Source of the DNA: an uncultured Rhodospirillales bacterium
GTDB taxonomy: Bacteria; Pseudomonadota; Alphaproteobacteria; Acetobacterales; Acetobacteraceae
Length of the DNA stretch: 64,000 bases
NCBI GenBank assembly: GCA_903823665.1
Contig: CAIJTR010000060.1
Coordinates: 1-64,000, forward strand
Direction of reading: 5' to 3'
Part shown: positions 3,917-58,681 of the stretch, in pieces
How positions within the stretch are numbered: the first letter of the stretch is position 1
Layout: each line of letters starts with the position of its first letter
The notes under the pieces: model-generated
What the model was told of the DNA's origin: nothing
The model's database searches: none
The model's input: only the letters and a program-made list of their open reading frames with translations
Made by a program: the position numbers and the translations under genes

Positions 3917-7662
<3,746 letters not shown>

Positions 7663-7671
7663 TGGCGGCGG

Positions 7672-8526: not shown

Positions 8527-8602
8527 CGGGCGGCTATGGAGCGCGGTCTATAGCACAGTGTGGCTGTAGGCGAAGCCCCGCCGATGAAGCGTTGTCGTGT
8601 GA

Positions 8603-9562
8603 TCAGGCTGCTGCCGAAAGCGGCTGCCAGATCGGATTGCTCGCAGTATCGTCGACGACCAAACGCCAGTTGGCGTCGTCGGCGAACAACGCCAGCAGAA
8701 GCTGGTTGTTCAGCGCATGACCTGTCCGATTTGCCACGAATCGGGCGCAGAGTGGGCTGCCGGCCAATGCCAGATCGCCTACTGCATCGAGCAGCTTGTG
8801 ACGAACGAACTCGTCAGATACGCGCAGGCCGGTTGGGTTCAGCACCCTGGCACCATCAACGACTATTGCATTGTTCAAGCTGCCGCCGAGTGCGAGGCCG
8901 GCGGCGCGCAGGGCTTCCACTTCGTGGGCCTGCGTGAAGGTGCGGCAATAAGACAGTTCAGTGCGGAAGGTTTCTGGCGAGAAATGTATCGAAAGGGCCT
9001 GCTTGCCGATGGCGGCAGCGTCAAAATCAATCGACAGCGCCATGTCAAAGCCATCAACATATGGCCGAAGCTCAGCGAAAGCTGCGCCGTTTTCGACGCG
9101 AACTGTACGCAGAACTTCGATACGCGCAGTGCTCGCATCCTGTTCTACGATGCCCGCACAGTCGATCAAAAAAACGAAACTGGCGGCCGAACCGTCAAGG
9201 ATCGGCACTTCCGGCCCATCAACCTCAATAAGTAGATTGTCGATACCGCAACCTGCCAAGGCCGCAAGGAGATGCTCGACGGTGCTCACCCGGCACTCGC
9301 GGCGCACCGGATCGCCAATGACCGTGCAAAGCCGAGTGTCGACGACGTGATCGTGCCGCGCGGGGATATCAATGGCACCAAGAGTTGGGTCGAGATCGAT
9401 GCGGCGGAACGTGATGCCATTACCAGCAGGGAGGGGCACTAGATTGAGCCGGATCTTTTTGCCGCTGTGCAAACCCACGCCCACGCACCCAATCGACGAA
9501 GCGATCGTGCGCTGCGTGCGGGAGGTGGTTTGCAGAGTAAGGCCGTGAGGCATACCGTCCAT
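8603..9562 (-). CDS. lpxC: UDP-3-O-acyl-N-acetylglucosamine deacetylase
   Basis: Protein of 319 aa that catalyses the committed step of lipid A synthesis. The zinc-site motifs are clear: STVEHLLAAL, then EFVRHKLLDAVGDLAL with the second His and the Asp, and the catalytic His in NRTGHALNNQL. The N-terminus has the LpxC start QRTIASSIGCVGVGLHSGK. It follows ftsZ after a terminator and a gap of about 284 bases, so it probably has its own promoter, though no clean one is visible. ATG 9562 is used; an in-frame ATG (residue 4) is a possible alternative. Confidence 0.96.
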   Translation of the reverse strand: MDGMPHGLTLQTTSRTQRTIASSIGCVGVGLHSGKKIRLNLVPLPAGNGITFRRIDLDPTLGAIDIPARHDHVVDTRLCTVIGDPVRRECRVSTVEHLLAALAGCGIDNLLIEVDGPEVPILDGSAASFVFLIDCAGIVEQDASTARIEVLRTVRVENGAAFAELRPYVDGFDMALSIDFDAAAIGKQALSIHFSPETFRTELSYCRTFTQAHEVEALRAAGLALGGSLNNAIVVDGARVLNPTGLRVSDEFVRHKLLDAVGDLALAGSPLCARFVANRTGHALNNQLLLALFADDANWRLVVDDTASNPIWQPLSAAA

Positions 9563-9782
9563 CGAGTCTTTTCCCCGAGGGCACCTGATCCGAGCAGACC
9601 TGGAGCCGTTTGTTACCGGACCGATAGCGGCGCGTCCGATGATGACAACTTAAGGGTGCTTGACGGCTCGGGCCAGTCAATCATTATTTCCAAATATTTC
9701 GACGCAAGTCATTGATTGTAAAATACTTTGGATATCACATGGCGTTACATACAGACATATTCGCGCTGCGCTGCAACGTCGC

Positions 9783-9824
9783 AAAAACAACCCCTGCTGT
9801 CCCCTAGTTATGGGACAACAGGGG
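9783..9824 (-). terminator. Rho-independent terminator of the dcw operon after ftsZ
   Basis: On the minus strand CCCCTG-TTGTCCC and GGGACAGCAGGGG (complementary to 9791-9803 and 9812-9824, with one mismatch) form a stem with an 8-base loop. TTGTTTTTG follows directly. It begins 23 bases beyond the ftsZ stop and would separate the dcw operon from lpxC. The remaining 9563-9782 is an AT-richer leader in which I see no gene. Confidence 0.85.
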
Positions 9825-9846
9825 GCCTGTTAGCCACGCCAAGGAT

Positions 9847-11550
9847 TTACGATTGGCGGCGAAGGAATGCAGGGATCTCAATGCCAATTTCGTCCCCACC
9901 GGACGGGCGGACATGCGCCCGTGCCTGCTCAGGTTCGCGTGATGGCGATGCATATTGCGGCTCGGCGCGCGGAGTGGGCTGCTCAGATTGGGTTTCTGTC
10001 ATGTGACCACGAATGGCACCAGTCACGATACCAAACAGGCTCTTGCGCTGGCTAGGAGCGGCAGAAGGCTCCGCCACTATTGCCGGACGTACCGCCTGTG
10101 GCTTTGGCTCCGCTGCACGAGGGGTGGAGCGGGGTGGGGGGGCCTGTGGCCGGAGCGGCTGCTTTAGATGGGCCGGAATAGCGCGTGGCGGCAGCGGCGG
10201 TTCGTCCAGATCAAACCCAGCGGTAGGGTTAATTTCCGTTAGGCTGGAAACAGACAAGTTTGGCTCTGGCTGAAGCAGCGCACTGGGACGTACTGGTGAC
10301 TGCACCACGCGGGACATCGGAGCCGCTACAGGTGACGGTGCCGCATTCGGTTGGCTGATTGCGCGATTGGGTGCAGCCGGTGCCGCACGAACAACTTGCT
10401 CGCGTGCAACGGCCGGTGCCAGGCTACGTGGTGCCGGCATGGCATTGCCCTGCGGTGCCTGCGTGACGTTGGCCTGAACCTGCTGGTTTGCCTGATGCTG
10501 TGCAACGGCATTCGCCATCGGCATCACGCTGCCGCCACCAACGGCAACCAGGGTGGGACGCTCCACATGCTTGGTGAGGGCGTTCTCGATGCCCGTGGCC
10601 ACAACCGATACGCGGATGCGACCATTCAGCGTTTCGTCGATGGCCGAGCCGAAGATGATGTTCGCCTCGTCGTCCACTTCCTGGCGGATGCGGTTGGCGG
10701 CTTCATCAACCTCGAACAGCGTGAGGTCTTCACCACCGGTGATGTTGATGAGAAGGCCGCGTGCACCGGACATCGACGTGTCCTCAAGCAGCGGATTGGA
10801 GATGGCAAGCTCGGCAGCGCGCAGTGCACGGCCTTCACCGTCAGCCTCGCCCGTGCCCATCATCGCCTTGCCCATTTCCGCCATGACGGTGCGGATATCT
10901 GCGAAATCGAGGTTCACCATGCCAGGTGCAACCATCAGATCAGTCACGCCGCGCACACCCATATAGAGCACGTTGTCGGCCATCTTGAACGCTTCCTTGA
11001 AGCCAGTGCGTTCATTCGACAGACGGAACAGGTTTTGGTTGGGAATGACAATCAGCGTGTCAACCCATTGCTGCAGCTCGTCTATTCCTTGCTCAGCAGC
11101 ACGCGCGCGGCGAGCACCCTCAAACGTAAAGGGTTTGGTCACAACGCCAACCGTCAGGATGCCGCGCTCACGAGCCATGCGTGCGATCACCGGTGCAGCT
11201 CCCGTACCAGTGCCGCCGCCCATGCCTGCGGTGATGAACACCATATGAGCGCCATCAAGGTGACGATACACCTCATCCATCGCTTCTTCGGCAGCAGCAC
11301 GACCGATTTCCGGCTTTGCTCCTGCACCAAGGCCCTGGGTCAGATGCGGCCCAAGCTGAATGCGCCGATCCGCGCGCGCATTTTGCAGCGACTGCGCATC
11401 AGTGTTTGCAACGACAAAGTCCACGCCCTTCAGGTCGAGCGAAATCATGGTGTTCACAGCATTTGTGCCACCGCCACCGACCCCGATGACTGTGATACGC
11501 GGCGTGAAATCTGTATGCATCTGCTGCGGAATGGTCAGGTTCAAGGTCAC
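9847..11550 (-). CDS. ftsZ: Cell division GTPase FtsZ
   Basis: Protein of 567 aa; it polymerises into the Z ring at midcell. The tubulin signature GGGTGTGA lies at about residue 108 and [10 protein letters not shown] at about 23. The globular core ends near residue 330. A long linker rich in Pro, Ala and Gln follows, and the C-terminal peptide IPAFLRRQS is the site used by FtsA. The GTG start at 11550 is preceded by GGGAGGAG at good spacing. An ATG 10 codons later is a weaker choice, and the open frame extending to 11856 overlaps ftsA. It is last in the dcw operon, 58 bases after ftsA. Confidence 0.97.
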
Positions 11551-11608
11551 GGGGTTTCTCCTCCCAGAGAGATCGTTTCTACGTGGCATTTCCGATTCGT
11601 CAGCATTC

Positions 11609-12925
11609 CTACGTGCGATCACGCAAAAAATTGACGATCCGGCGCAATATTCCGCCGGGGCGATCAGAATCGATATCGATGTCCATGGCCGTGCGGCCCT
11701 CTCCCGAGGCCCACGAAAGCAGGCCGACGGAAGTGGCAAACGCAGGGCCCGCGGCCGACTCGGGCAGGCCTCGGAGTGATGTTGGGCGACCCACACGAAC
11801 CTGACGGTCAAGGATCGTGGCAGCCATTTCGCGAACGCCTTGCAACTGGCTGGCACCGCCGGTCAGCACCACGCGATGGCCTGCTATTGAGCCGAAGCCT
11901 TCGAGTCGTTCACGCACCATCTCGAATGTCTCTTCGAGCCTTGGGATGATGATGCCCACCACCGCCTTACGCGGCACCTTGGCAATCTGATGTTCGGCCT
12001 CACCGACGAGCTTCACCGGAAGCATCTCACGCTCGTCGTCGGGGCTCGATTGTGCGCTGCCGAACAATGTTTTCAGGCGTTCAGCATGCGCAACGGGCGT
12101 TGAGAGCAGACGGGCGATGTCGTTGGTCACATGCTGTCCACCAATCGGCAACTGACACGTGTGCAGCAACTGGCCCTCAGCGAACACCGCCATGCCTGTC
12201 GTGCCGCCGCCCATGTCGAGCACTGTGGCACCAAGCTGCTTTTCGTCTTCCACTAATGTGGCAATACCCGCAGCCATCGGCGCAGATACCAGCGCGGTGA
12301 TGCCAAGATCGCAACGCTGCAAACAGGCCTGCAGAGTGCGCAGTGCGCTGTGCGTAGCGTCGATGACATGCATACGGGCACTCAATGTATCGCAAAACAG
12401 CCCTCGCGGATCGTCAACGCCCATTGTATCGTCCGCCGCGAAATTCAGCGGCATGGCGTGGATGATCTGACGACCGTCGGAAGCGGCGCGGGCGCGGCCT
12501 TCCAGCAGTACGCGACGCACGTCCATTTCTGTCACCGCGCGCCCGCCAACCGGCCAGCGCACGTTGAACAGGCGGCTTTCCGGCTGGCCACAAGAGAGAT
12601 TTACCGTGACGGCGCGAAGCCGCGTATCAGCCATTTCCTCCGCAGCCCCAACGGCTGCACGAATGGCACGTTCGGCCTGCTCGATATCCACGATGCCACC
12701 TGCGCGAACACCCTGGCCACGTTGCCAGCCGAAACCAAGCACGCGCGGCGTTCCATCTGATTCGACCCGGCCGATGATGCACGCGATCTTTGTTGTTCCG
12801 ATATCAAGAATTCCGAACGGCCCAGACGGACGTGGTCCCCCGCGCGGACGGGCGCGTGGCTCTGGTTGATCTGGCAAAATCTGGTTGGCGGAGCGTGTGG
12901 CACTGCCGGGTGAGATGGCGTTCAT
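11609..12925 (-). CDS. ftsA: Cell division protein FtsA
   Basis: Protein of 438 aa of the actin-like FtsA family that tethers FtsZ to the membrane. Nucleotide-binding motifs are [13 protein letters not shown] (about residue 42) and [14 protein letters not shown] (about 243). The SHS2 insertion domain follows the first. The C-terminus ends in a short amphipathic segment ([14 protein letters not shown]) that fits the membrane-targeting helix. A Pro/Arg-rich N-terminal extension of about 38 residues precedes the core. The start overlaps the ftsQ stop by 4 bases. Confidence 0.95.
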
Positions 12926-13809
12926 GTGGCCTTCCTCGACGGTGTGGCAGGAGCGGGGGCATGGGCAGCGTTCTCATGAGCCTGGCCGCATGGCCCCTCG
13001 ACCATGGAGCGAATGCGCAAACGATCTGGCAAACGCAGGTCGATTTCCTGTAGCGGCCGATCAAGGATTGCTTTGCTGGTCTGCAATTCTGCCAATTTTG
13101 CCAGGGCTGGCACTTCGGCACCCTCGGGCAGTTGAACATTTGCACCGCTGTTCATGCACAAATCCCAACGGCGCTCGCCGACACGCACAGCAGCCACCAG
13201 ATGGCTTGTTATAACCGGATAGGCTTCCATCGATTTCAACAGCGACGCGGCTTCCACGTCCGCACCAATACCCACCACCAGCGGAAGCTTGTCGGCAAAA
13301 TCTGAGATGTTGCTATCAGTGACGTTTTTGCCGGCCTGATCAATGAGCGTGAATTTGCCCTGGTTCTGCCAAACCGCGAACGGTCTGCGCTCGTTCAGCA
13401 CCACATGAATTGTGCCTGGCAACACACGTTCAACGATAGCGGAGCGAACCCAGGGAATAGCCTCCAAACGCGCACGGGCATCGGAAACAGAAAAGCCTAG
13501 AATGGGCGACCCAACTTTGGCATCAAGCGCCGCGTTCAGTAGCTTCTGCGGTGTTTTTTCCTGCCCTTCGATGCTGATGGTTTGAATAGTGAGACCAATG
13601 CCAGCTGTGGCCATTCCCGCACGATCGCGCATGGGCGCACCATGGCCAAACGAGTTGGCGGCGACTGCGATACCGATCAAGACGATGACGGCAGCGGATG
13701 CGAATACCGTGGGCCGCAGCAATTTGCGTTGCCTGCGCAGCATCAGCTTCCAGCGATTGGGCCGGTCCGGCAAAGCGGTTTGCACCACACGAGGTTTCAC
13801 GCGCGGCAT
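12922..13809 (-). CDS. ftsQ: Cell division protein FtsQ
   Basis: Protein of 295 aa from ATG 13809 (MPRVKPRV). It has a basic cytoplasmic tail, one membrane segment at about residues 36-50 and a periplasmic POTRA domain starting near TIQTISIEGQEKTPQ. The FtsQ/DivIB core motif (LNERRPFAVWQNQGKFTLID) follows. It links early and late divisome proteins. I prefer this start to 13836 because it gives a normal tail and overlaps the ddl stop by only 13 bases. It overlaps ftsA by 4 bases. Confidence 0.94.
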   Translation of the reverse strand: MPRVKPRVVQTALPDRPNRWKLMLRRQRKLLRPTVFASAAVIVLIGIAVAANSFGHGAPMRDRAGMATAGIGLTIQTISIEGQEKTPQKLLNAALDAKVGSPILGFSVSDARARLEAIPWVRSAIVERVLPGTIHVVLNERRPFAVWQNQGKFTLIDQAGKNVTDSNISDFADKLPLVVGIGADVEAASLLKSMEAYPVITSHLVAAVRVGERRWDLCMNSGANVQLPEGAEVPALAKLAELQTSKAILDRPLQEIDLRLPDRLRIRSMVEGPCGQAHENAAHAPAPATPSRKAT

Positions 13810-44680: not shown

Positions 44681-46233
44681 CAGGCCCGCCACGCGCCAGG
44701 GGAGAAATCCATGAAGAACGAAGGCGGTGCCTGCCACGGCGTCGCGCGCTTGCACGCAGTGAACACCGCGTTCTGATGCAGCACCACGTAAGCCGGGTCC
44801 TCTCGCTCACAAATCGCCAGCATCCGCGCAAACACCGCCCGTCGCTGCGCCATGTCCTGCCCGCTCTCCAGCGCCCGCGACAGCTCGTTCATCTCCGCAT
44901 TCGTCCACTCGCCATTGGTCTGCTGCGCCCCATTTGGCCCATGCTGGTTGACGATGGACGACACCGGATCATCGAACACGGCGGAATTGGACCAATCCCG
45001 CACACCTCGAGGACCTGCCTTGTCCAGCACCTGGCCCCAATTCTCCTTGATCTCCAGCCGCACGTTCAGCCCGGCCTGCTTCCACATCTCGACCAATATC
45101 TGAGCCGTGGCATTCTCGGCGGTGTAGTAATCATTCCGTGCGCGATAGATGATCTCATCGCCCTTATAGCCCGCCTGCTTCAACAGATCCTGCGCCAGCG
45201 CCGGATCATATTTCGGCACCGTCCACCCCGGCACGAACATCTCGCCATAGAATTCCCATTGCAGACCCGCCGGCACCCGCGCCCGCCCAGCCCACAACGC
45301 ATCCACAATCGCCTGCCCATCAATCGCATGCGCCATCGCCTGCCGTACGAGAGGATTGGAAAGGGGAGGGTGGTTCTTGTCGAACGCCAGAATGCGATGG
45401 TTCAGCACCAGCCCGCCTTGCACAACCAAGCGGGCGTTCTTCTCAATTTGGCTGATCTGATCAGGCGGAATGTCACACGCGAAATCAAACTCGCCCGACT
45501 GCAACCCAGCAATCCGGCTCGAAGCCTCCGGCACTTCCAAAAACCGCACTGATTTCAGCGGCGGCCTGCCACCCCAATACTCATCATGCGCATCCAGCAC
45601 GAGCGAGTTGTCCGGCTTGAACTCCCGCAACTTGTAAGGCCCGGTACCGACCGGACGACGAGAGTTTGCCTGCCAATCGCCATGCTCCAGCCATGCCCGC
45701 TTGGAGACGATCTCCGAGCCACCAGCGGAAAGCCGCCCCTCCATCGTCACGTCCGGCGTCGCATTCACAAACCGCACGACATATTTCGAAACCACATCCA
45801 CGCTCGAAAGCGAAGGCCAATGCCGCTTTGCTATCGGCGGAATATCGGCGGGAAGCCCAGCGCCAAACATATGCTCAGCCCCAAAGCTGAACGCCATATC
45901 CTCCGCCGTCAGCTCATCGCCATTGTGCAGCTTCACGCCGGGCCGCAGTTCCAGCTCCACCACCCGGTCACTGATCCGCTTCCACGAGGCCGCAATCCCC
46001 GGCACCCGCTCCAACTTGCCCCGCTGATTGCGCGCAATCGGGGTCTCCAGAATGGAAGCCACCCACCGCTCACTCGCATTGGACGACTGCTCCCGCAGCG
46101 GCTCCAGCACGCCGGTGTTGCTGATCTTCTGCACCGCCACCGTCACACTCGGCCGAGTATCGCTCTGCGCCAGCGCCACACGCGGCAACAGAGCAGCCCC
46201 AGCCATCACAGCCCGCCTCGATATCAACATCAC
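44680..46233 (-). CDS. ABC transporter substrate-binding protein 1 (SBP family 5)
   Basis: Protein of 517 aa with a twin-arginine-type signal (ISRRAVMAGAALLPRVALAQ). The family 5 binding fold is marked by LRPGVKLHNGDELTAEDMAFSF and RRPVGTGPYKLREF. It is clearly homologous along its length to the products of 48159-49787 and 49794-51416, with shared ACDIPPDQIS and WTNAEMNELSR blocks. It lies between the second ATPase gene and the permeases. The ligand cannot be told from sequence. Confidence 0.9.
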   Translation of the reverse strand: MMLISRRAVMAGAALLPRVALAQSDTRPSVTVAVQKISNTGVLEPLREQSSNASERWVASILETPIARNQRGKLERVPGIAASWKRISDRVVELELRPGVKLHNGDELTAEDMAFSFGAEHMFGAGLPADIPPIAKRHWPSLSSVDVVSKYVVRFVNATPDVTMEGRLSAGGSEIVSKRAWLEHGDWQANSRRPVGTGPYKLREFKPDNSLVLDAHDEYWGGRPPLKSVRFLEVPEASSRIAGLQSGEFDFACDIPPDQISQIEKNARLVVQGGLVLNHRILAFDKNHPPLSNPLVRQAMAHAIDGQAIVDALWAGRARVPAGLQWEFYGEMFVPGWTVPKYDPALAQDLLKQAGYKGDEIIYRARNDYYTAENATAQILVEMWKQAGLNVRLEIKENWGQVLDKAGPRGVRDWSNSAVFDDPVSSIVNQHGPNGAQQTNGEWTNAEMNELSRALESGQDMAQRRAVFARMLAICEREDPAYVVLHQNAVFTACKRATPWQAPPSFFMDFSPGAWRA

Positions 46234-47207
46234 TCAGCAACCTTGGTTTGAGCATCGGCCAAATGGCACGCAATCTTCCGCCCATCATCGAAATGACGCA
46301 GCGCCGGAACCTCCGCCTTGCACCGCGCAATCGCCACCGGGCAGCGCGTATGAAACGCGCAGCCAGACGGCCGATCAGCCGGGTTCGGCGGATCACCCGT
46401 CAGCACAATCCGAGGAATACGCCGAGGCCCCGGCACCGGAATGGCCGACACCAGCGCTCGCGTGTAAGGATGCGCCGGATCAGCAAACAACGCCTCCGGA
46501 TCGCCCTGTTCCACTATGCGGCCGAGATACATCACCGCCACCTCATGGCTCACCTGCCGCACAACCTTCAGGTCATGGCTGATGAAAACCATCGCAATCC
46601 CACGCGCCACCTGCAGATCGGTCAGCATGTTGACCACCTGCGCCTGAATTGAAACGTCCAGCGCAGAAACAGGCTCATCACAAACCAACAACTTCGGGTT
46701 CGTCGCCAGCGCCCGCGCCAGCACCGCCCGCTGCCGCTGCCCGCCGGACAATTCATGCGGATGCCGCGCCGCATGATCGGGCCGCAGACCCACATCCACC
46801 AGCAACGCCGCCACGCGCTCCTTCCGCTCGGCAGCATTGCCGATGCGGTGAATAACCAGCGGCTCCTCAATCTGCTGCGCAATTGTCAAACGCCGGTCCA
46901 TCGCCCCCAGCGGGTCCTGAAACACCAGTTGCATCTTCGCCCGCATATCCCGCCATTCGGCACTCCGAGGCACCGGCATCGCCGCACCCTCGAACGTCAC
47001 GCTGCCCTCGCTCGGCCGTTCCAGCCCCAGCGCCATCCGCCCGGTGGTGGATTTGCCGCAGCCACTCTCACCGACAACACCCAGCGTCCGCCCCGGCTGC
47101 ACCGAGAACGAAATGCCATCCACGGCGCGCACCTTCACCGGCCGGCCGAACAACCCGCGCCGCGTGGTATAAATCTGAGCCGCATCCGTCACATCCAAAA
47201 GGCTCAT
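46230..47207 (-). CDS. Dipeptide-type ABC transporter ATPase (DppF-like)
   Basis: Protein of 325 aa. Walker A is GESGCGKSTTGR, the signature is LSGGQRQRAVLARAL, Walker B is LLVCDEPVSALD and the switch His is in FISHDLKVV. The C-terminal oligopeptide-transporter domain has HTRCPVAIARCKAEVP with the cysteines of this family. It overlaps the DppD-like gene and binding protein 1 by 4 bases each. Confidence 0.93.
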   Translation of the reverse strand: MSLLDVTDAAQIYTTRRGLFGRPVKVRAVDGISFSVQPGRTLGVVGESGCGKSTTGRMALGLERPSEGSVTFEGAAMPVPRSAEWRDMRAKMQLVFQDPLGAMDRRLTIAQQIEEPLVIHRIGNAAERKERVAALLVDVGLRPDHAARHPHELSGGQRQRAVLARALATNPKLLVCDEPVSALDVSIQAQVVNMLTDLQVARGIAMVFISHDLKVVRQVSHEVAVMYLGRIVEQGDPEALFADPAHPYTRALVSAIPVPGPRRIPRIVLTGDPPNPADRPSGCAFHTRCPVAIARCKAEVPALRHFDDGRKIACHLADAQTKVAE

Positions 47208-48175
47208 GCCGCAACCGCCTCATTCAAATGCACGCAGGCAGCGTCATGATCCCTTCCCAACGCCTGAAACGGCGGCATCACCGCACATGCCCCATCCGCC
47301 CGCTCACATCGCGGTGCGAACGCACAGCCCGGCGGCAAATTCCAAGGCTCCGGCACACCGCCTGGAATGGCCGAAAGCCGCCGACGCGGCCCTACCATAT
47401 CCGGCAACGCGCCGAGCAAACCCTGCGTGTAGGGGTGCGCAGGGCGGGCGAACAATTCCTCACTCGGGGCCTGCTCCACAATCCGCCCGGCATACATCAC
47501 GCACACCCGGCTGCACATATCCGCGACAACGCCGAGATCGTGGCTGATCAGCACCAGCGCCATGCCCGTCTCGGCCTGCAACCGTCGCAGCAAATCCAGA
47601 ATCTGCGCCTGAATCGTTGCATCCAAAGCCGTCGTCGGCTCGTCCGCCACCAGCAGCTCCGGCTGCCCCGCCAGTGCCATGGCGATCATCACCCGCTGAT
47701 TCTGCCCACCGGACATCTCATGCGGATATACGTCGATGCGCTGCGCCGGGTTGGGAATGCCCACCATCTCGAAAAGCCGCCGCGTTTCTGCTCGCGCCGC
47801 CGCGTCATCCATCCCACGATGCAGCGTCAGCGCCTCACATACCTGCCGTCCCACTGTCTGCACCGGGTTCAGTGCCGTCGCTGGGTCTTGAAAGATCATC
47901 GCAACCCGCCCGCCGCGCACGTCATCGAGCACGGCAGGTGCCGCCCCCAGCAACTCCGCCCCATCCAGAGTCACGGACCCGCTCACCGCTGCCTTCTTCG
48001 GCAAGAGCCCAAGTGCCGCCAGCCAAGTGACAGACTTGCCGCACCCGCTCTCGCCCACGAGCCCCACTGCCTCACCTTTGCCGATATCAAGGTCGATGCC
48101 GCGCAATGCTGGCAGCCCGTTGAACTTCACATCCAGCCCGCGGATACGCACCAGCGGCTCAGCCACGAATGCCAT
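47204..48175 (-). CDS. Dipeptide-type ABC transporter ATPase (DppD-like)
   Basis: Protein of 323 aa. Walker A is GESGCGKSVTWLA, the signature is MSGGQNQRVMIAMAL, Walker B is LLVADEPTTALD and the switch His is in LISHDLGVV. The C-terminal domain has FAPRCERADGACAV. It overlaps binding protein 2 by 17 bases upstream and the DppF-like gene by 4 bases downstream, so it is translated as part of the same operon. Confidence 0.93.
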   Translation of the reverse strand: MAFVAEPLVRIRGLDVKFNGLPALRGIDLDIGKGEAVGLVGESGCGKSVTWLAALGLLPKKAAVSGSVTLDGAELLGAAPAVLDDVRGGRVAMIFQDPATALNPVQTVGRQVCEALTLHRGMDDAAARAETRRLFEMVGIPNPAQRIDVYPHEMSGGQNQRVMIAMALAGQPELLVADEPTTALDATIQAQILDLLRRLQAETGMALVLISHDLGVVADMCSRVCVMYAGRIVEQAPSEELFARPAHPYTQGLLGALPDMVGPRRRLSAIPGGVPEPWNLPPGCAFAPRCERADGACAVMPPFQALGRDHDAACVHLNEAVAA

Positions 48176-49787
48176 CTCCCCAGTTGCTGGCCTTGAAATC
48201 CATCACAAAACTCGGGCATGCGCGCCAGCGGATATCACGTCGTTTGGCGGTGAACCCAGCATTCTGATGCAGAACCGTATAAGCCGGGTCCTCCCGCTCA
48301 GCGATCTGGAGCAGCCGCTGGAAAACCCGCTTCCGCTCAGCCCTATCGGTGCTCGACTGAATTCGGACGCAAAGCTGATTGTATTCCGCATTGGTCCACT
48401 CGCCCGCCGCCGGGGCCGAGCCATTCGGCCCATAGGTCGTGACAATCGAGCCCACGGGATCATTGAACGCCGCCCCAGCCGACCAATCGCGCACGCCGCG
48501 CGGCTTGGAGCGGTCGCGGATCTGCGTCCAATTCTCCTTCATCTCAATCTCAACGTTCAGGCCCACCTGCTTCCACATCTCCAACAACACCTGCGAGGTC
48601 GCAACCTGGTTGGTGTAGTAGTTGTTGAGCAGACGATAAGGGATCGCATCTCCCTTATACCCAGCCGCCTTCAGCAGAGCGCGAGACTTCGCCGGATCAT
48701 ATTCTGGCACCCGCCAATCGCTGATCAGCATGTCGCCATAAAAATCGAACTGCAGACCCGGCGGCACCCGCGTCCGGCCTGACCACAGCGCATCAATGAT
48801 CGCCGCCCGGTCGATCGCATGGGCAAACGCCAGCCGCACCCGCGGATCAGCCAACGTCGCGTTGGTCTTGTCGAACTGCGTGATGCGAATGTTCAAAATC
48901 GGCCCACCGGCCACTTCGAAGCCCGCATGCCCTTCCACCACGCCAATCTGATCGGGCGGAATGTCGCACGCGAATTGATACTCGCCAGACAGCAAGCCGT
49001 TGATCCGGCTGGAAACTTCCGGCACCTGCACAAAACGCAGCGTTTTGATCGGCGGACGGCCGCCCCAATACTCGTCATGCGCATCCAAAATCAGCGCCTG
49101 ATCCGGCCGGAACTCGCGCACCCGATACGGCCCGGTGCCCACTGGCTTGCGGGCGAAATCCAGCCAACTCGAAGCCGCCTCATATCCGGCGCGCGAGGTG
49201 ATCTCACTGCCCGTCGCAGCCAGCCGCCCTTCCAGCGTCACATCCGGCGACGCATTGACGAAACGCACGGTCCGCGCGTCCACAATTTCCACGCCGCGCA
49301 GCCCAGGATACGCCCGGCGCGCCACCGGCGGAATCTCCGGCGGCAACGCCTTGCTGCCCGCACCAATCAAATATTGCGCCGAAACCGGCAGCGACACGCC
49401 CAATTCTGGTTTGGTGTCGCCAAACATCTGCGCCGGCGAGAAGGCAAAAGCCACGTCCTCCGCCGTCATCGTCTCGCCATTGTGGAACTTCACCCCGTCC
49501 CGCAGGGTGAATTCCAGCGTCGCCTCGTCAATCCGCCGCCAGGATGTCGCCAGCCCCGGCTTTTGCTTGATGCCGTCGAACCAATCGAGATCAATCAGCC
49601 GCTCGGTCATCAGCCCACTGGTGCGCTCGCCCACATTGGACTGTTCACGTAACAAATTCAGAGTGTTGGTGGTGGCGATGGTTTGCACCGCCACCGTCAC
49701 CGTCGGACGATTATCCACCTGCGCCAAAGCCACGCGGGGCAGCAATGCTGACCCGGCCACTCCTGCCAATGAGCGTCGGGTCAGCAT
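48159..49787 (-). CDS. ABC transporter substrate-binding protein 2 (SBP family 5)
   Basis: Protein of 542 aa with a signal peptide of twin-arginine design (LTRRSLAGVAGSALLPRVALAQ). The family 5 motifs LRDGVKFHNGETMTAEDVAFAF and RKPVGTGPYRVREF are present. An insertion of about 20 residues around YLIGAGSKALPPEIPP is shared with binding protein 3 but not with 1, so 2 and 3 appear to be the closer pair. The gene ends inside the start of the DppD-like gene. Confidence 0.9.
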   Translation of the reverse strand: MLTRRSLAGVAGSALLPRVALAQVDNRPTVTVAVQTIATTNTLNLLREQSNVGERTSGLMTERLIDLDWFDGIKQKPGLATSWRRIDEATLEFTLRDGVKFHNGETMTAEDVAFAFSPAQMFGDTKPELGVSLPVSAQYLIGAGSKALPPEIPPVARRAYPGLRGVEIVDARTVRFVNASPDVTLEGRLAATGSEITSRAGYEAASSWLDFARKPVGTGPYRVREFRPDQALILDAHDEYWGGRPPIKTLRFVQVPEVSSRINGLLSGEYQFACDIPPDQIGVVEGHAGFEVAGGPILNIRITQFDKTNATLADPRVRLAFAHAIDRAAIIDALWSGRTRVPPGLQFDFYGDMLISDWRVPEYDPAKSRALLKAAGYKGDAIPYRLLNNYYTNQVATSQVLLEMWKQVGLNVEIEMKENWTQIRDRSKPRGVRDWSAGAAFNDPVGSIVTTYGPNGSAPAAGEWTNAEYNQLCVRIQSSTDRAERKRVFQRLLQIAEREDPAYTVLHQNAGFTAKRRDIRWRACPSFVMDFKASNWGDGIRG

Positions 49788-49793
49788 GTCTGA

Positions 49794-51416
49794 TTACCCC
49801 CAATTCTTGGTGCGGAAATCCATCGCGAACGTGGGCGACGCCTTCCACTTGATCGAGCGTGGCTTGGCGGTGAACGTCGCGTTCTGGTGCAACACCGTGT
49901 AAGCCGGGTCCTCGCGCTCGCAGATTTCGAGCATACGGGCGAAGGTCTTCTTGCGCAGCGCACGGTCAGTGCTGCTCAGCAACACGCCGGAGATCGTGTT
50001 CATCTCCTCGTTGGTCCACTCGCCGCGCTGCTGCTGCTCGCCGTTCGGGCCATGCTGGGCGACGATGGACGACACTGGATCGTTGAACGTCGCCGAGTTC
50101 GACCAGTCACGAACCGCGCGGCCCGGCGTCTTCTCGAACACCTGGCTCCAGTTTTCCTTCATCTGGATCTGCACGTTCAGACCAGCCTGCTGCCACATCT
50201 CGGCCAGCACCTGACCGGTGGCGGTCTGGTTGGTGTAATAGTTGTTCTGCAGGCGATACTCGATCGGGTCGCCCTTGTAGCCGGAAGCCTTGACCAGCTC
50301 ACGAGCCTTGGCGATGTCGAACTCCGGCACCGTCCAGCCGGTGACGAACATGTCGGCATAGAACGGCCACTGCAGCCCAGCCGGAACAACCGTGCGCCCG
50401 GCCCACAGGCTGTCCACAATCGCCTTGCGGTCAATTGCGTGCGCCATCGCAAGGCGCAGGCGTGGGTCGCGCAGCGCGTTGTTCTTGTCGAATGCCATGA
50501 TGCGGTGGTTCGGAATGGTGCCGCCCTGCACTTCGAATGCAGCGTGCTTCTCAATGTCGGCAATCTGGTCCGGCGGAATGTCGCAGGCAAACTGATACTC
50601 GCCCGACAGCAGCCCGTTCACGCGCGATGCCACTTCCGGCACCTCGACAAAACGCAGTGTTTTGATCGGCGGGCGACCACCCCAATACTCGTCATGCGCA
50701 TCGAGAATGAGCATCGAGTCAGGGCGCAGTTCACGCACTTTGTAAGCGCCCGTGCCAACCGGCTTGCGCGAATAATCCAGCCATGACGGAGACTCATTAA
50801 AGCCGCGCTGGCTGACGATTTCCGCGCCGGTTCCTGACAGGCGACCTTCCAACGTCACGTCCGGCGTCGCGTTGACGAAGCGCACCGTGTATTTGTCAAC
50901 GATGTCGACGCGATCAAGGCCCGGCAGCAGGCGACGCGCCACCGGTGGAATTTCCGCCGGCAGTTCCTTGCTCTTGTTGATGATCTGAAACACGCTCGAC
51001 AGCGGCAGCGTCTTGCCGTCCACGGTTGGGCGGGTCGAACCGAACATATGCTCTGGCCCGAAGCTGAACGCGACATCCTCAGCGGTCATTTCGTCGCCGT
51101 TGTGGAACTTAACACCTTGGCGCAGCTTCATCTCCACCGTCTTGTCGTCGATGCGCTTCCACTCGGTGGCGAGGCTCGGCACCTGCTCCAGTTGCGACTG
51201 GTAATTCAGGCCGATCAACCGCTCGGTGAACAGGTTCGACAGTCGCGTGCCCACGTTCGACTGCTCGCGCAGCAGATCAAGCGCATTGGTGATCGACACC
51301 TTCTGCACGGCCACGGTCACGGTCGGGCGAGTGTCGCTCTGGCCAATGGCGATGCGCGGCAATGCGGTGGCTGCGGCGGCCATCCCAATGGCACCGCGAC
51401 GGCTGATCTTGCTCAT
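49794..51416 (-). CDS. ABC transporter substrate-binding protein 3 (SBP family 5)
   Basis: Protein of 540 aa from ATG 51416, with a twin-arginine signal (ISRRGAIGMAAAATALPRIAIGQ). The start overlaps the stop of the hydrolase gene as ATGA, which decides it against an in-frame start at 51515. Motifs LRQGVKFHNGDEMTAEDVAFSF and RKPVGTGAYKVREL place it in SBP family 5. It is the first of three homologous binding proteins in this operon and directly follows the hydrolase, so it may bind that enzyme's substrate. Confidence 0.9.
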   Translation of the reverse strand: MSKISRRGAIGMAAAATALPRIAIGQSDTRPTVTVAVQKVSITNALDLLREQSNVGTRLSNLFTERLIGLNYQSQLEQVPSLATEWKRIDDKTVEMKLRQGVKFHNGDEMTAEDVAFSFGPEHMFGSTRPTVDGKTLPLSSVFQIINKSKELPAEIPPVARRLLPGLDRVDIVDKYTVRFVNATPDVTLEGRLSGTGAEIVSQRGFNESPSWLDYSRKPVGTGAYKVRELRPDSMLILDAHDEYWGGRPPIKTLRFVEVPEVASRVNGLLSGEYQFACDIPPDQIADIEKHAAFEVQGGTIPNHRIMAFDKNNALRDPRLRLAMAHAIDRKAIVDSLWAGRTVVPAGLQWPFYADMFVTGWTVPEFDIAKARELVKASGYKGDPIEYRLQNNYYTNQTATGQVLAEMWQQAGLNVQIQMKENWSQVFEKTPGRAVRDWSNSATFNDPVSSIVAQHGPNGEQQQRGEWTNEEMNTISGVLLSSTDRALRKKTFARMLEICEREDPAYTVLHQNATFTAKPRSIKWKASPTFAMDFRTKNWG

Positions 51417-52978: not shown

Positions 52979-53148
52979 GAGTGCGGAGGTAGCACCGACC
53001 TGCGTCTTCAGCGTGACAGATTGATTTCATTTTTATGACACGACGACCCCCTCGACCGCAGCGCTGGGCGGACGCATGATGCCGCCCGCCTGGCATCGTG
53101 GCGCAGCCATGCCCGTGCCCAATGTTCAAAACAACGGAGACCCAGTTC

Positions 53149-54582
53149 ATGTATCCTGCAGTCCAACTGCTCATCGACGGCGCATGGGGCCCCAGCGCGT
53201 CCGGCGAAACGCTGCCGGTTCTCAACCCCGCCACCGGCGAGACCATCGGCCAGCTCGCCCATGCTGGCATCCCCGATCTCGACCGTGCGCTCGCCGCCGT
53301 GCAGAAGGGCTTCGAGGTCTGGCGCAAAATGAGCGCCTATGACCGCAGCAAGATCATGCGCAAGGCCGCCGATCTCGTCCGCGCCCGTGTCGATACCATC
53401 GCCCCCCTGATGACAATGGAGCAGGGCAAGCCGCTCGCCGAAGCCAAGATGGAAACCGCCTTCTCAGCGGACATCATCGAATGGTTCGCCGAGGAAGCCC
53501 GCCGTGCCTATGGCCGGGTCGTCCCCGCCCGTGCCGAGAACATCTACCAGCTTGTGCTGAAAGAGCCCGTCGGCCCCGTTGCCGCCTTCACGCCGTGGAA
53601 CTTCCCGATCAACCAGGCCAACCGCAAAATCTGCGGGGCACTTGCCGCCGGCTGCTCGATCATCGTCAAAGGCCCAGAAGAAACACCCGCCTCACTCGCC
53701 GCCTACATCCAATGCTGGCTCGATGCCGGCGTGCCCGCTGGTGTGATCAACCTCGTCTACGGCGTGCCAGCGGTGATCAGCGAATACCTCATCCCGCACC
53801 CGGTCATCCGCAAAATCTCGTTCACCGGCTCCACCCCGGTTGGAAAGCACCTCGCAGCGTTGGCTGGCGCGCACATGAAGCGCGTGACCATGGAATTGGG
53901 TGGCCACGCTCCTGCGATGATCTTCGATGACGCCAACATCGACACCGCGGTCAACATCCTCGCCGCCAACAAGTTCCGTAACGCCGGCCAGGTCTGCGTA
54001 TCGCCCACCCGCTTCCTCATCCAAGACGGCGTGCATGACAGCTTCGTGGAGAAGTTCGTCGCCAAGGCCGAGGCACAGAAAATCGGCAACGGCATGGACC
54101 CCACCACCACCATGGGCCCGCTCGCCAATGGCCGCCGTGTCCCCGCCATGGAAAGCTTGATTGCGGACGCCGTGCAGAAGGGCGCCACCATCGCCACCGG
54201 CGGCAAGCGCATCGGCAACGTCGGCAACTTCTTCGAACCCACCGTGCTCACCGGCATCACGCCCGAAATGCGTGTGATGAACGAAGAACCCTTCGGCCCA
54301 ATCGCGCTGTTCTCGCGCTTCAGCACGCTCGATGAGGTCATCACCGAAGCCAACCGCCTGCCGTTCGGCCTCGCCAGCTACGCCTACACCTCGTCCAACC
54401 ACACCGCGATGTCCCTCGGCACCCGCGTCGAAGTTGGCATGCTCTCCATCAACCACCACGGCATCGCCCTGCCGGAAGTGCCGTTCGGCGGCGTGAAAGA
54501 CAGCGGCTACGGCTCCGAAGGCGGCCTCGAAGCCATCGAAGCCTACCTCAACACCAAACTGGTCACCCAGGCCGGCATCTAA
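53149..54582 (+). CDS. NAD(P)-dependent aldehyde dehydrogenase, succinate-semialdehyde type
   Basis: Protein of 477 aa of the aldehyde dehydrogenase superfamily. The oxyanion Asn is in FTPWNFPIN and the cofactor loop is FTGSTPVGK. The catalytic Glu249 is in TMELGGHAP and the nucleophile Cys283 is in [10 protein letters not shown]. The pattern is nearest to succinate-semialdehyde dehydrogenases, but substrate choice cannot be read safely. ATG 53149 has CGGAG upstream; an in-frame start at 53098 is less likely. It diverges from the hydrolase/transporter operon across 170 bases and may oxidise an aldehyde released in that pathway (inference). Confidence 0.9.
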
Positions 54583-54596
54583 GTCGCCCCCCGCAG

Positions 54597-54625
54597 CCCG
54601 CATCGCGCTTCAGCGATGCGGGTTT
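54597..54625 (+). terminator. Terminator after the aldehyde dehydrogenase gene
   Basis: CCCGCATCGC (54597-54606) pairs perfectly with GCGATGCGGG (54613-54622) around a 6-base loop and is followed by TTT. It lies 15 bases past the stop. The next 140 bases (54626-54766) hold no gene and mark the change to AT-rich DNA. Confidence 0.75.
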
Positions 54626-54766
54626 GGCTCAGCTCAGGGCCTGTTTCCGAATGATACTGCAATGACCGTTTTCGACCATTTGCGGTTGTTTAGCTACTCA
54701 CCTCGGTTGCCTAAAAGGAGACATCCGAATACCGTAGCTTTGATGCATAAGCTGTTTTGAACAATT

Positions 54767-55756
54767 TTGGGATGGCGTCCCTTGCAAGCATTAGTGAATT
54801 CCGATGCTATCTTGTATGAAGAAAGACTAAATAGGTTCAAAGGGCAGGGAGGCGGCATTCAATTTGACGACCTGAATGAGAGAGATATACTCGATCAAGT
54901 TTGTGAGATCTTAAAGATCCTTGAGACAATATCTCAAAGCGCTCTAGAGCATTCAAAGTGTTCATTAAGCTTATATTTAAGGTCTGACTTAGCTGCGTCA
55001 AGTACCGTTGAAGTAAGAAAGACCGGTGAGAAGGCATATAAAATTGATGCTTCTGTAGAGTTTCTGCATCTTTTAGTTCGAAGCGGACTCAGGCACATGG
55101 CTTCTGTTCCACAGTTTAGCCCTGTTCAGTCGATACTTATAGCATCAGCGATGATATTTCTACATGAACTAGCTCACGTCGCATGGGGTCATTTAGAGCG
55201 TCCAATTGCTACCGACTTAGAGTATAGAACTGACGAAGTCAGTGCAGATTATCGGTCTGGAGTATTATTAGCGCGCTGTCTGGCAGATACCGACGCAGTC
55301 TCTGACTTTATTCAAATAAAAAATCCAGACGATCAGGCTCGCTATACGTTTTTAGGTGCGTTAGTTCTACACACGTTTATCTCCGAACGAACAAACATTT
55401 CTGCAAGATATCATACAGCTAACAATCGTTTCGTCTTAGTTTTGAGTGGGTATTTAACGTCACTCTTAAAACTAAAGCAGCCTGGTACACATTGTGTGAA
55501 AGGAATCCAGGACAGTGTTCGTGTTACGGTAATTAATGCACAGGATCGGGGATTTCTGCATGTTCTCTCGCCTGATGCAGCTGATGACTTGGAAATGGAA
55601 AAACACACTGAACCAGGATTTCAGAAAAGGGTTGCGTTTCTGCTTAACCAGTCGGAGGTAGCTGAGCCGCTGTCGAAGCTGATTGGCAAGTTTGTAAGAA
55701 AATACAGAACTGACAAGGTAAAACTTATCAAGCACCTTTTGGGGAAGAAGAGGTGA
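54767..55756 (+). CDS. AT-rich orphan HExxH metallopeptidase-like protein
   Basis: Protein of 329 aa from TTG 54767. HELAH (H133, E134, H137) in a helix FLHELAHVAWGH, followed 20 residues later by DEVSAD (E157), gives the HExxH...E-x-x-A-D pattern of zinc peptidases such as the ImmA/IrrE and Lit/U49-like groups. No signal peptide or membrane segment is clear; the C-terminus is lysine-rich. Two sample lines counted by hand have 42 and 47 % GC, against about two thirds in the gene before. The start has no ribosome binding site. A one-base change near 54800 would join the frame to an ATG at 54772, so the 5' end may be damaged. Family not certain. Confidence 0.7.
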   Translation: MGWRPLQALVNSDAILYEERLNRFKGQGGGIQFDDLNERDILDQVCEILKILETISQSALEHSKCSLSLYLRSDLAASSTVEVRKTGEKAYKIDASVEFLHLLVRSGLRHMASVPQFSPVQSILIASAMIFLHELAHVAWGHLERPIATDLEYRTDEVSADYRSGVLLARCLADTDAVSDFIQIKNPDDQARYTFLGALVLHTFISERTNISARYHTANNRFVLVLSGYLTSLLKLKQPGTHCVKGIQDSVRVTVINAQDRGFLHVLSPDAADDLEMEKHTEPGFQKRVAFLLNQSEVAEPLSKLIGKFVRKYRTDKVKLIKHLLGKKR

Positions 55757-55887
55757 GTGGGCTTGTCGATCAAATGGGAACCGACTGCTTGTCTACCTGC
55801 TCGAAGCTGAAGCGGACAGACCGCTTTCCACCGACATCCGCCCTTGCCGCACTGCAAGAGCCACTCCAGCATCATCGAGAGACAGCC

Positions 55888-56592
55888 TCACGCCGCATCG
55901 TGAAAAATAACCCCCAGCGTGTGCCGCCGTCCGCTGCGAATGCGGCTAACCCCATGCCGTAAATTCACCCGGTAGCTCCCGCGCGCCCCTTGCACCGGGC
56001 GATGGCGCACCGCGAACACCACGCCCTCGCCCTGAAGCAACGCCACCACCTCAGCCCGGCTCTGCATCCGCGGCCGCTGCTCGGTCAGCACGAACTCGCC
56101 GCCGGAGAAATCCCGCCCCGGGTCCGACAACAAAAATGCCACCTGCAACGGAAACACATGCTCGCCGTAAAGGTCCTGATGCAGACAGTTATAATCTCCC
56201 TCCCCGTATTGCAGCAGCAACGGCGTCGGTCGCGTCTGTCCCGCCGCGTGGCATCGCGCCAGAAACTCTGAGTGCGCAGCAGGAAACTGCACATCAATCC
56301 CCATCACCGCGTTCCAGCGATTGGCCAACGGCACCAATTTCTCATAAAGGCTCGACCGCAACCGCTGCACCAAATCAGGCAATGGATACGCCAAATACTT
56401 ATACTCCCCGCGCCCATACCCGTGCCGAGCCATCACAATACGCGACCGAAACCGCTGCTCCTCGGCATAAAGTGCCACCAAATCCCGGCACTCCGCCGCA
56501 CTCAGCAAAGGCCCAGTCACGGCGCATCCGTGGCTCTCAAGCTCCGAACTAATCTCCGCCCAGTCCCGCGCCTGCTGTGAGATAATGTCCAT
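55888..56592 (-). CDS. 2-oxoglutarate/Fe(II) oxygenase family protein
   Basis: Protein of 234 aa from ATG 56592, which has a GGAGGAGGG site. The iron ligands are His and Asp in LHQDLYGEHVFPL and a distal His in NLRHGVSRI. The Arg of RSGRRHTLGVIFHDA would bind 2-oxoglutarate. It fits prokaryotic 2OG-Fe(II) oxygenases related to prolyl hydroxylases or AlkB-like enzymes. The substrate is unknown. It follows nagA by 56 bases in the same direction. An upstream in-frame start at 56685 would overlap nagA. Confidence 0.8.
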   Translation of the reverse strand: MDIISQQARDWAEISSELESHGCAVTGPLLSAAECRDLVALYAEEQRFRSRIVMARHGYGRGEYKYLAYPLPDLVQRLRSSLYEKLVPLANRWNAVMGIDVQFPAAHSEFLARCHAAGQTRPTPLLLQYGEGDYNCLHQDLYGEHVFPLQVAFLLSDPGRDFSGGEFVLTEQRPRMQSRAEVVALLQGEGVVFAVRHRPVQGARGSYRVNLRHGVSRIRSGRRHTLGVIFHDAA

Positions 56593-56648: not shown

Positions 56649-57779
56649 TCAGGCACAACGCTCCCCGCCACGCCAAACCCCACACACCGCCAAATCCGCA
56701 TCCAGCGCCACGAAATCCGTCCTACTCCCCGGCGTAATCCGCCCACGATCAAACAAGCCCACCGCATCCGCAGGCGTGCGCGTCGCCATCCGCACTGCAT
56801 CCGAAAGCGGAATCCCAACGCCCGCCACCGCCCGCCGAACCGCCTCGGCCATGCTCAAATGCGCCCCAGCCAATGTGCCCGCCGCATCCGTCAGCCGGTC
56901 ATTCTCCAGGCGGATCATCGTCCCCGCTAGCTCGAACGACGTGCAATCCGACCCCGCCGTCGCCATCGCATCCGACACCAGAAACAACCGCTCCGGCCCC
57001 ATCGCGCGAAACGCCAGCGCCACGCTGGCCGGATGCACATGCAGCAAATCCACAATAATCCCGGCCACGCCCCGCAACATCGCAGCCCCCACCAACCCCG
57101 GCGCGCGGGACTGCACGGGAGACATCGCATTGAACAGATGCGTCGAGCCCATCACCCCCGCATCAAACCCAGCATTCGCTTGCTCGAAACTCGCATCGGA
57201 ATGCCCAGCAAACACAAAACGCCCAGCCGCCACCAGCGCCTTTACGTGTGCGGCAGAAACAATCTCGGGTGCCAAAGTAATCACCATCGGCCCCGGAAAC
57301 GCCTTCGTCAGCATCTCGATATCCGCGCGCTCCGGCACCGCAATCGCCGCCGCCGGATGAATACCGCGCCGCGCCATCGCAAAAAATGGCCCCTCGAGAT
57401 GCAGCCCAGCAATCCCCGCCACCCCATCCTCAATCGCCCGATGCGCCGCCTCCAACGCCGCCTCACGCATCGGTTGGTCAGAACTGATCAAAGTCGGCAA
57501 AATACTCGTCGTGCCCAGCCGCATATGCGCGTCGGCAATGATCCGCAGCGTATCGGGCGAAGGCGCATCATTGAACATCACGCCGCCGCCGCCATTGACC
57601 TGCAGATCAACAAACCCCGGCACCAGCATCATATCGTCCGGCAGATGTTCGACGGAGGTATAAGCGGGTAGGGCGTCCACCCGTTCGATCCCGATCACCC
57701 GGTCATCATGCAGCAGCACGCACATACCCTCGTGCCAGTCACTGCCATCAAAGATGCGTGACGCGGCCAGCGCTTTCAT
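56649..57779 (-). CDS. nagA: N-acetylglucosamine-6-phosphate deacetylase
   Basis: Protein of 376 aa of the amidohydrolase superfamily. It removes acetate from GlcNAc-6-phosphate in amino sugar recycling. Metal and substrate motifs are LVPGFVDLQVNGGGG, GLHLEGPFF, AGHSDAS, GSTHLFNAMSP and LVSDAMATAG, the last with the catalytic Asp. ATG 57779 overlaps the murQ TGA as ATGA. The open frame continuing upstream to 58229 is only a shadow of murQ. MurQ makes its substrate, so the pair is a recycling module. Confidence 0.95.
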   Translation of the reverse strand: MKALAASRIFDGSDWHEGMCVLLHDDRVIGIERVDALPAYTSVEHLPDDMMLVPGFVDLQVNGGGGVMFNDAPSPDTLRIIADAHMRLGTTSILPTLISSDQPMREAALEAAHRAIEDGVAGIAGLHLEGPFFAMARRGIHPAAAIAVPERADIEMLTKAFPGPMVITLAPEIVSAAHVKALVAAGRFVFAGHSDASFEQANAGFDAGVMGSTHLFNAMSPVQSRAPGLVGAAMLRGVAGIIVDLLHVHPASVALAFRAMGPERLFLVSDAMATAGSDCTSFELAGTMIRLENDRLTDAAGTLAGAHLSMAEAVRRAVAGVGIPLSDAVRMATRTPADAVGLFDRGRITPGSRTDFVALDADLAVCGVWRGGERCA

Positions 57780-58681
57780 CGAGCTAGCCCAGCCAGCGTC
57801 ACCCGCAGATTGCCACCATGCCGCGCAAGCGCCGCCGAAGCCTCCGCTCCGCTCAACCCTTCCAGCACCAGCACGGCAGATTTCACATTCCCGCCCGCTT
57901 CCACCAGCGCCGCCCGCACGGCCTCCAATTCCGCGCCGGTAATCTCCATCACCATCCGCTCCGCCCGCCGCCGCAGCTTCTCGTTGCGCGCCAGCATATC
58001 GACCATCCGGCCACGATACACATGCCCCATCCGCACCATCACAAGGCTCGACAGCAGATTGAGCACCACCTTCTGAGCCGTGCCCGCCTTCATCCGCGTT
58101 GAACCCGCAATCACCTCGGGCCCCGTCTCCACCAGAACCGGAAACTCCGCCGCCCGCAGAATCGCGCCATTGGCTGAGTTGGCCACTGCAATCGTGCAAG
58201 CCCCCGCTGCCCGAGCCGCATTCAGGCAAGACAAAGTGAACGGCGTGCTGCCACTCGCGGCAATGCCGATCACCACATCATTTGCGCCCACGCCATGCGC
58301 CGCAATCGCCGCAGCCCCGGCTGCCACATCGTCCTCGGCATTTTCCACCGCCCGCGTGAACGCCACGTCGCCGCCCGCCATCAGCAACACCAGCCGATCC
58401 TCCGGCCAGTTGAACGTCGGCGGCAACTCCGCCCCGTCCTGCACTCCAATTCGACCAGATGTTCCAGCCCCGGCATAAACCAGCCGCCCACCACGTCCGA
58501 GTTGCTCCACACAGGCCTCCGCAGCCGCAGCAATGGCGGGCAGGGCAGGGCCCACCGCCGCCACCGCCGCCAATTGCCCCTCCCACATCGCATGCAGAAT
58601 TGCCTGCGGTGCCCAACTATCGAGATCGTCGTAGCGTCGATCAGGCTGTTCGGTGCTCGGGAGTTTCGGATCACTGGCCAT
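57776..58681 (-). CDS. murQ: N-acetylmuramic acid 6-phosphate etherase
   Basis: Protein of 301 aa with an SIS fold. It splits the lactyl ether of MurNAc-6-phosphate to give GlcNAc-6-phosphate for NagA. Motifs are YAGAGTSGRIGVQDGAELPPTF, which includes the catalytic Glu region, GIAASGSTPF and GSTRMKAGTAQKVVLN. ATG 58681 has GGAG at six bases; a TTG at 58693 is an alternative. It is the first gene of the murQ-nagA-oxygenase run. I see no murR-type regulator or MurNAc transporter nearby. Confidence 0.95.
   Translation of the reverse strand: MASDPKLPSTEQPDRRYDDLDSWAPQAILHAMWEGQLAAVAAVGPALPAIAAAAEACVEQLGRGGRLVYAGAGTSGRIGVQDGAELPPTFNWPEDRLVLLMAGGDVAFTRAVENAEDDVAAGAAAIAAHGVGANDVVIGIAASGSTPFTLSCLNAARAAGACTIAVANSANGAILRAAEFPVLVETGPEVIAGSTRMKAGTAQKVVLNLLSSLVMVRMGHVYRGRMVDMLARNEKLRRRAERMVMEITGAELEAVRAALVEAGGNVKSAVLVLEGLSGAEASAALARHGGNLRVTLAGLAR

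Follow-up and report, generated by a model that had tools for sequence, protein, structure and literature searches.

An AT-rich islet gene of an uncultured Rhodospirillales bacterium encodes a probable, horizontally acquired zinc peptidase with a possible Lit-like anti-phage role

How did a single AT-rich gene come to lie between an aldehyde dehydrogenase gene and an oxygenase gene in an uncultured Rhodospirillales bacterium, and what might its zinc-peptidase-like product do there? To approach these questions, we analysed a stretch of 64,000 nucleotides of contig CAIJTR010000060.1 (hereafter the window; Table 1). The gene has a GC content of 0.427, with 0.53/0.37/0.38 at codon positions 1/2/3 versus 0.62/0.47/0.83 in the left-hand gene, and 990-base tiles elsewhere in the window average 0.625 (sd 0.026, minimum 0.56). 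This places the ORF at a z of about −7.7 and makes it the sole low-GC gene of the window, with no other gene-length stretch near its value; the sharp compositional difference from the flanks that had been claimed in the original prediction is thus borne out (42.7% versus 62.5 ± 2.6%). Such a codon-position pattern is typical of a functional gene of low-GC origin. The edges of the islet are sharp, at about the tabulated positions, and it begins directly 3′ of the terminator-like hairpin that follows the aldehyde dehydrogenase gene.

Table 1 Features of the window around the zinc-peptidase-like gene, and locations of its relatives.
Feature	Coordinates	Strand	Basis or remark
Zinc-peptidase-like ORF, 329 aa	54767..55756	+	TTG start, intact
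AT-rich islet, foreign composition	54645..55860		GC about 0.42 versus 0.62-0.65 on either side
HELAH codons (H133, E134, H137), zinc-binding HExxH, then invariant G141-H142	55163..55177	+	9/9 aligned sequences
DEVSAD codons, residues 156-161; E157, A160, D161 invariant; E157 presumed third zinc ligand	55232..55249	+	Alignment
YHTANNR codons (Y215, H216, R221), third motif Y-[H/A]-x4-R	55409..55429	+	Proposed counterpart of the M48/Lit HPx4R plug
Aldehyde dehydrogenase (PF00171), native left neighbour	53098..54582	+	Pfam, sister comparison
Perfect 10-bp inverted repeat, probably the aldehyde dehydrogenase terminator; left limit of native sequence	54597..54622	+	
Left copy of 14-base pattern, GACCGTTTTCGACC	54664..54677	+	
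Right copy of 14-base pattern, GACCGCTTTCCACC	55819..55832	+	At 3′ arm of small AAGCGG-acaga-CCGCTT hairpin
2OG-Fe(II) oxygenase 'Oxygenase-NA' (PF09859), right neighbour, in variable segment	55888..56595	-	
nagA-like amidohydrolase, native right border	56649..57800	-	Adjoins aldehyde dehydrogenase in sister genomes
Relative, Sinorhizobium americanum plasmid A	L002:9935-10936		
Relative, Agrobacterium tumefaciens pQ15_94_5	L003:9947-10891		
Relative, Rhizobium lentis p1	L008		
Relative, Rhizobium sp. NXC14	L009		
Relative, Rhizobium sp. FKY42	L041:7746-8723		
Relative, genome of same phylum, integron cassette	L010:8810-9733		
Broken relative	R. etli plasmid pRetNXC12d		

An alternative GTG start at 54794 matches the N-termini of the relatives better than the TTG and may be the true start, because the relatives align from about residue 9. 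A Shine-Dalgarno-like AAGGAG stands at 54715-54720, but no usable start codon is suitably spaced from it, and a tiny in-frame reading frame (ATG CAT AAG CTG TTT TGA, 54743-54760) ends just 5′ of the TTG. The search for a promoter of the peptidase gene returned nothing beyond chance. The promoter result and the tiny frame, together with the broken relative on the R. etli plasmid, would suit selfish or decaying passenger DNA, that is, the orphan of a mobile element with no present function. We consider this improbable, given 329 intact codons, the retention of all catalytic motifs and codon-position GC typical of a working gene.

Is the gene foreign to its genome? Single-sequence searches found no homologue of the protein in the seven sister species of the genus, whose genomes are fragmentary (the source genome is itself a draft of 211 contigs), nor in 100 relatives or 385 genomes of the class. 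In three sisters (G001, G006 and G007) the aldehyde dehydrogenase gene is followed by the nagA-like gene at a distance of about 15-140 bases. The foreign insertion originally proposed is supported by both results, and an empty site does exist at this junction; its expected position between the dehydrogenase and the oxygenase had to be revised, as the oxygenase is also missing at these three sites and lies elsewhere, on another contig, in the sisters having it. Since oxygenase and peptidase are missing together, the variable segment comprises both genes, about 2 kb, within which foreign composition is confined to the peptidase part. Similarity to the sister oxygenase loci ends within a few bases of the oxygenase 3′ end. 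The window gene is very probably a recent acquisition by horizontal transfer that encodes a zinc peptidase. A viral origin was rejected, with no relative in the viral contigs or phage records scanned. Three further observations concern the surroundings: the interval between aldehyde dehydrogenase and HU varies among sisters, with nagA and SIS genes present or missing; the PF09859 oxygenase is of the DNA-damage type; and the region 44700-51400 of the window gives several alignments to one and the same part of the sister loci, which suggests tandem paralogous genes.

The route of arrival was sought in the islet flanks, where two 14-base patterns had been read as a possible trace of insertion. 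Both copies of GACCG-N-TTTC-N-ACC are exact, and the window contains no third even when one mismatch is tolerated; the expected count is 0.24, and the pair is suggestive only, because 5/100 shuffles (one mismatch allowed) give at least two copies. The left copy, which lies in no significant hairpin, has essentially no second occurrence in the genome and none in the genome's relatives, a left 22-base motif has one further genome copy with one mismatch, and the right flank of the islet is single-copy. With essentially single-copy flanks, no plasmid match for the left flank and no transposase in the islet, we discarded an insertion-sequence, transposon or REP origin of the 14-base flanks, and a reading of them as transposon ends is not supported. 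An attribution of the left motif to a widespread intergenic repeat was not borne out by the loci compared, and an integron-cassette origin of the window copy was rejected as no RYYYAAC or GTTRRRY attC cores occur in 54583-54790 or 55740-55890. The immediate neighbours (aldehyde dehydrogenase on one side, oxygenase and nagA-like gene on the other) include no partner toxin, repressor or transposase, as predicted, and no defence gene adjoins the window copy.

What, then, does the gene encode? The 329-aa product carries HELAH at residues 133-137 and DEVSAD at 156-161, all as first described, and this combination of HExxH and ExxAD supports the reading of a zinc-peptidase-like gene. By chance, HExxH appears in 2.3% of composition-shuffled versions of the protein and HExxH with ExxAD 10-40 residues later in 0.02%; the window has 281 stop-to-stop frames of 100 aa or more, of which 2 contain HExxH and 1 the pair. 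Conservation among independent relatives is the stronger argument for the motifs being real. Eleven residues (A126, H133, E134, H137, G141, H142, E157, A160, D161, G165 and R221) are invariant in 9/9 aligned sequences, and the invariance of the catalytic motifs at a pairwise identity of only 13-37% points to selection for catalysis. The close relatives also keep Y215 and, mostly, H216. With HExxH and the downstream glutamate conserved through the family, the protein would belong to the zinc peptidases of clan MA in the broad sense (gluzincins). AlphaFold models built from a two-sequence alignment reached pLDDT values of 44 and 41, too low for zinc-ligand geometry, and a fold search returned nothing.

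Assignment to a family within this clan was less direct. No model in Pfam, PHROGs, NCBIfam or PADLOC, and no known defence-protein profile among them, scored the protein above threshold; in Pfam and PHROGs there was no match up to E 10, which includes Peptidase_U49 (PF10463), peptidase M48 (PF01435) and Peptidase_M78 (PF06114), the three families named for the HMM search in the original prediction. PF10463 performs as a control, with 374 bits for E. coli Lit itself. The nearest model was Lit, below threshold (NCBIfam NF007238, E 0.041, 13.1 bits versus a cut-off of 274; PADLOC, E 0.034), and a hit to type B polymerase (NCBIfam, E 0.01, cut-off 692 bits) was dismissed as chance. Two distant relatives, L052 and L006, reached 12.1 and 13.0 bits against PF01435, where the cut-off is 20.3.

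Profile comparisons against the window family gave a more graded picture. Three M48 proteins and Lit scored 49.6, 41.4, 40.8 and 34.5, versus at most 22.1 for a background of about 170 decoy ORFs and 50 shuffled Lit sequences. M48 gave the strongest match (probability 89%), and Lit aligned over about 41 columns only (36%). One M78 protein of the same genome scored like Lit and HtpX (48%), three other M78 proteins were at decoy level, and M1, M41 and M50 controls dropped to that level too. The likeness to Lit and M48 is limited to about 17-45 columns around HExxH and ExxAD. In other genomes the family profile also retrieves genuine M48 proteins; L053-L055, weaker profile matches, turned out to be ordinary M48 proteins and were left out of the family. 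These comparisons support a putative zinc gluzincin of the M48/U49/M78 neighbourhood, and tests of membership in U49, M48 and M78 each came back negative. The earlier label Lit/U49-like holds at motif level, with Lit above all decoys, and fails as a family assignment, with PF10463 unmatched, NF007238 far below its cut-off and M48 matching at least equally well.

The same prediction had offered ImmA/IrrE as a second likeness, for which we found no specific support. The window protein shares with ImmA/IrrE a HELAH-type zinc helix, a downstream glutamate and a general association with mobile elements. In such a reading the product would be a regulatory protease acting on a repressor or stress regulator in response to DNA damage or stress, and its gene the cargo of an element since lost. 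Mobile elements often carry ImmA-type proteases, and the one M78 protein that scores like Lit and HtpX speaks for this reading. Opposed to it are the missing Pfam M78 match even at E 10, the decoy-level scores of the other M78 proteins and the GH after HExxH and Y[H/A]x4R of the window family, extra motifs which are absent from the M78 sequences compared. Nor is there a repressor partner: neither a repressor nor a helix-turn-helix gene adjoins the window gene, and none is annotated directly beside the relatives examined. We give an ImmA/IrrE-like role only a small chance.

The third motif separates the window family from its nearest neighbours. E. coli Lit reads HEISHVVLQH ... EREAD ... THPAAYER and the M48 proteins found by the same profile read HEYAHIMYGH ... 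EIEAD ... THPSNEAR, whereas the window family carries Y-[H/A]-x4-R where both of these carry HPx4R. The difference is consistent: the proline after the plug histidine is missing in all close relatives (Hx4R), and the plug histidine itself is absent in two family members, L008 and L009. In the M48 protease BepA, a regulatory plug closes the active site, with its HPx4R histidine coordinating the zinc (PMC7950410), and by analogy only, H216 and R221 may hold the window enzyme latent.

How far does the likeness to M48 (PF01435: HtpX, BepA, LoiP, YcaL) reach? The window family has the HExxHxxxGH and ExxAD layout of M48 and a conserved third His and Arg at the position of the HPx4R active-site plug. 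A soluble M48-like quality-control or stress protease, horizontally acquired and without a defence role, would account for the strongest profile match and for the retrieval of genuine M48 proteins by the family profile. It fits less well with the missed Pfam M48 model and with the lack of an evident membrane anchor or transmembrane segment (the top 19-residue hydropathy, 1.53, is the HExxH helix itself). The Hx4R motif, without the plug proline and with a spacing one residue shorter than HPx4R, and the patchy plasmid and integron distribution, unlike that of a housekeeping gene, also argue against it, and we regard it as distinctly unlikely. Lit, the cell-death peptidase of E. coli prophage e14 (PF10463, NF007238), has several traits in common with the window protein: both are single genes for proteins of about 300 aa carried on foreign DNA, with HExxH and an H at +9, ExxAD and then a His-x-Arg motif (HPAAYER in Lit, YHTANNR in the window protein). 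Unlike Lit, the window protein lies outside the U49 Pfam family, aligns over those few columns and has Hx4R rather than HPx4R. The resemblance lies in the catalytic motifs only, and a single-gene anti-phage role is plausible.

Besides the window copy, we found six intact family members, with 17-25% identity to the window protein, and a broken one; five of the six intact relatives are in Rhizobiaceae, mostly plasmid-borne, and one is a chromosomal-integron cassette. Four relatives lie near recombinases. The S. americanum copy (L002), on a conjugative plasmid, adjoins GajA-like (E 2e-42) and GajB-like (Gabija-like), DUF3800 and GHKL-type ATPase genes, with VapBC, AbiEii and an integrase in the vicinity. 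The A. tumefaciens copy (L003) adjoins two integrases and a PemK-type pair; a serine-recombinase fragment lies upstream of the FKY42 copy (L041) and a trypsin-like gene, then a NACHT/STAND-type ATPase gene, downstream; and a convergent tyrosine-recombinase frame lies 3′ of L009 and of the broken R. etli copy. The integron relative (L010) stands alone between VCR-like attC repeats within a long array and occurs in 1/296 genomes of its bacterial family. The window family is rare, patchy, mobile cargo, and it is undescribed and scattered. Rhizobial plasmids and integrons carry many non-defence genes. Defence-gene enrichment around the few known members looks likely. That chromosomal integrons store anti-phage genes is established (PMC12409362), and L010 resembles their single-gene anti-phage cassettes in its position between attC sites, unlike the window copy, whose ends carry neither attC nor a recombination core.

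Two further proteins, L007 and L052, were kept only as possible distant members. They share HExxHxxxGH and ExxAD with the family and have an M48-type third motif, so they may be cousins rather than members; both also lie in AT-rich islets (GC 0.34 versus about 0.69, and 0.37 versus about 0.57).

Several of these loci deserve note in their own right. The L002 region 5423-13110, with the GajA/GajB-like pair, DUF3800 and GHKL ATPase around the relative, may be a composite defence locus, and L041:8749-16056, with a 200-aa gene of unknown function, the trypsin-like gene and the NACHT/STAND-type gene, is a possible uncharacterised one. L010:1-18001, a long array of small genes separated by VCR-like attC repeats, is a sedentary chromosomal integron, many of whose cassettes are unknown. 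L007 (L012:2867-4990, in a genome of the phylum) lies 3′ of an HNH endonuclease gene, and the two may form an islet whose protease has the M48/Lit-type HPx4R motif. L052 (L052:1012-2067, minus strand, in a genome of the class) is a lone Lit/M48-like protease gene of 351 aa that adjoins ftsY, with no Pfam match above cut-off, and L006:1093-2328, in a genome of the same class, encodes a 411-aa M48-like HEYAH protein below the Pfam cut-off.

From the neighbourhoods of the relatives, we infer that the window protein could be an anti-phage effector, which we hold to be possible though somewhat doubtful, any particular substrate being less likely still. The best reading of the locus as a whole, itself tentative, is that of a horizontally acquired, latent zinc protease that would act as a Lit-like stand-alone effector against phage or in stress, cutting one essential protein. 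Counting against it are the lack of a known defence profile above threshold, the short reach of the similarity to Lit and M48, the equal score of one M78 protein and the missing plug histidine of L008 and L009. Lit, an HExxH protease, is latent until T4 gp23 is produced, whose Gol peptide activates it to cut EF-Tu (PMC3014915). For the window protein, proteolytic activity, latency, trigger, substrate and anti-phage role are all predicted. The gene would have arrived by horizontal transfer as a one-gene islet, and its product would be a soluble, intracellular (cytoplasmic) gluzincin-type zinc endopeptidase in which H133 and H137 bind zinc, E134 serves as catalytic base and E157 as third ligand. 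The Y215-H216-x4-R221 loop would cover the zinc and keep the enzyme latent, like the HPx4R plug of M48 proteases, until a signal specific to infection or stress uncovers the active site or the substrate; the activated enzyme would then cut one essential host (or phage) protein, and infection would fail.

Extended to the whole family, this reading becomes unlikely: the relatives would then make up a new family of latent 'suicide' proteases that has only the catalytic core in common with Lit and an altered Y-H-x4-R plug. Such a family would spread in single-gene islets, as plasmid cargo and in integron cassettes, and each member would be triggered by a phage product to cut an essential host protein. 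To our knowledge, Lit with T4 is essentially the only case in which single-gene phage exclusion by proteolysis is known in detail. If the reading is true, a family with a Lit-like catalytic layout and mobile, defence-rich surroundings, yet without a profile in the four libraries searched, would mean that a wider protease class has been overlooked by defence finders, and the window family would allow a direct test of the M48-type active-site plug as a latency switch.
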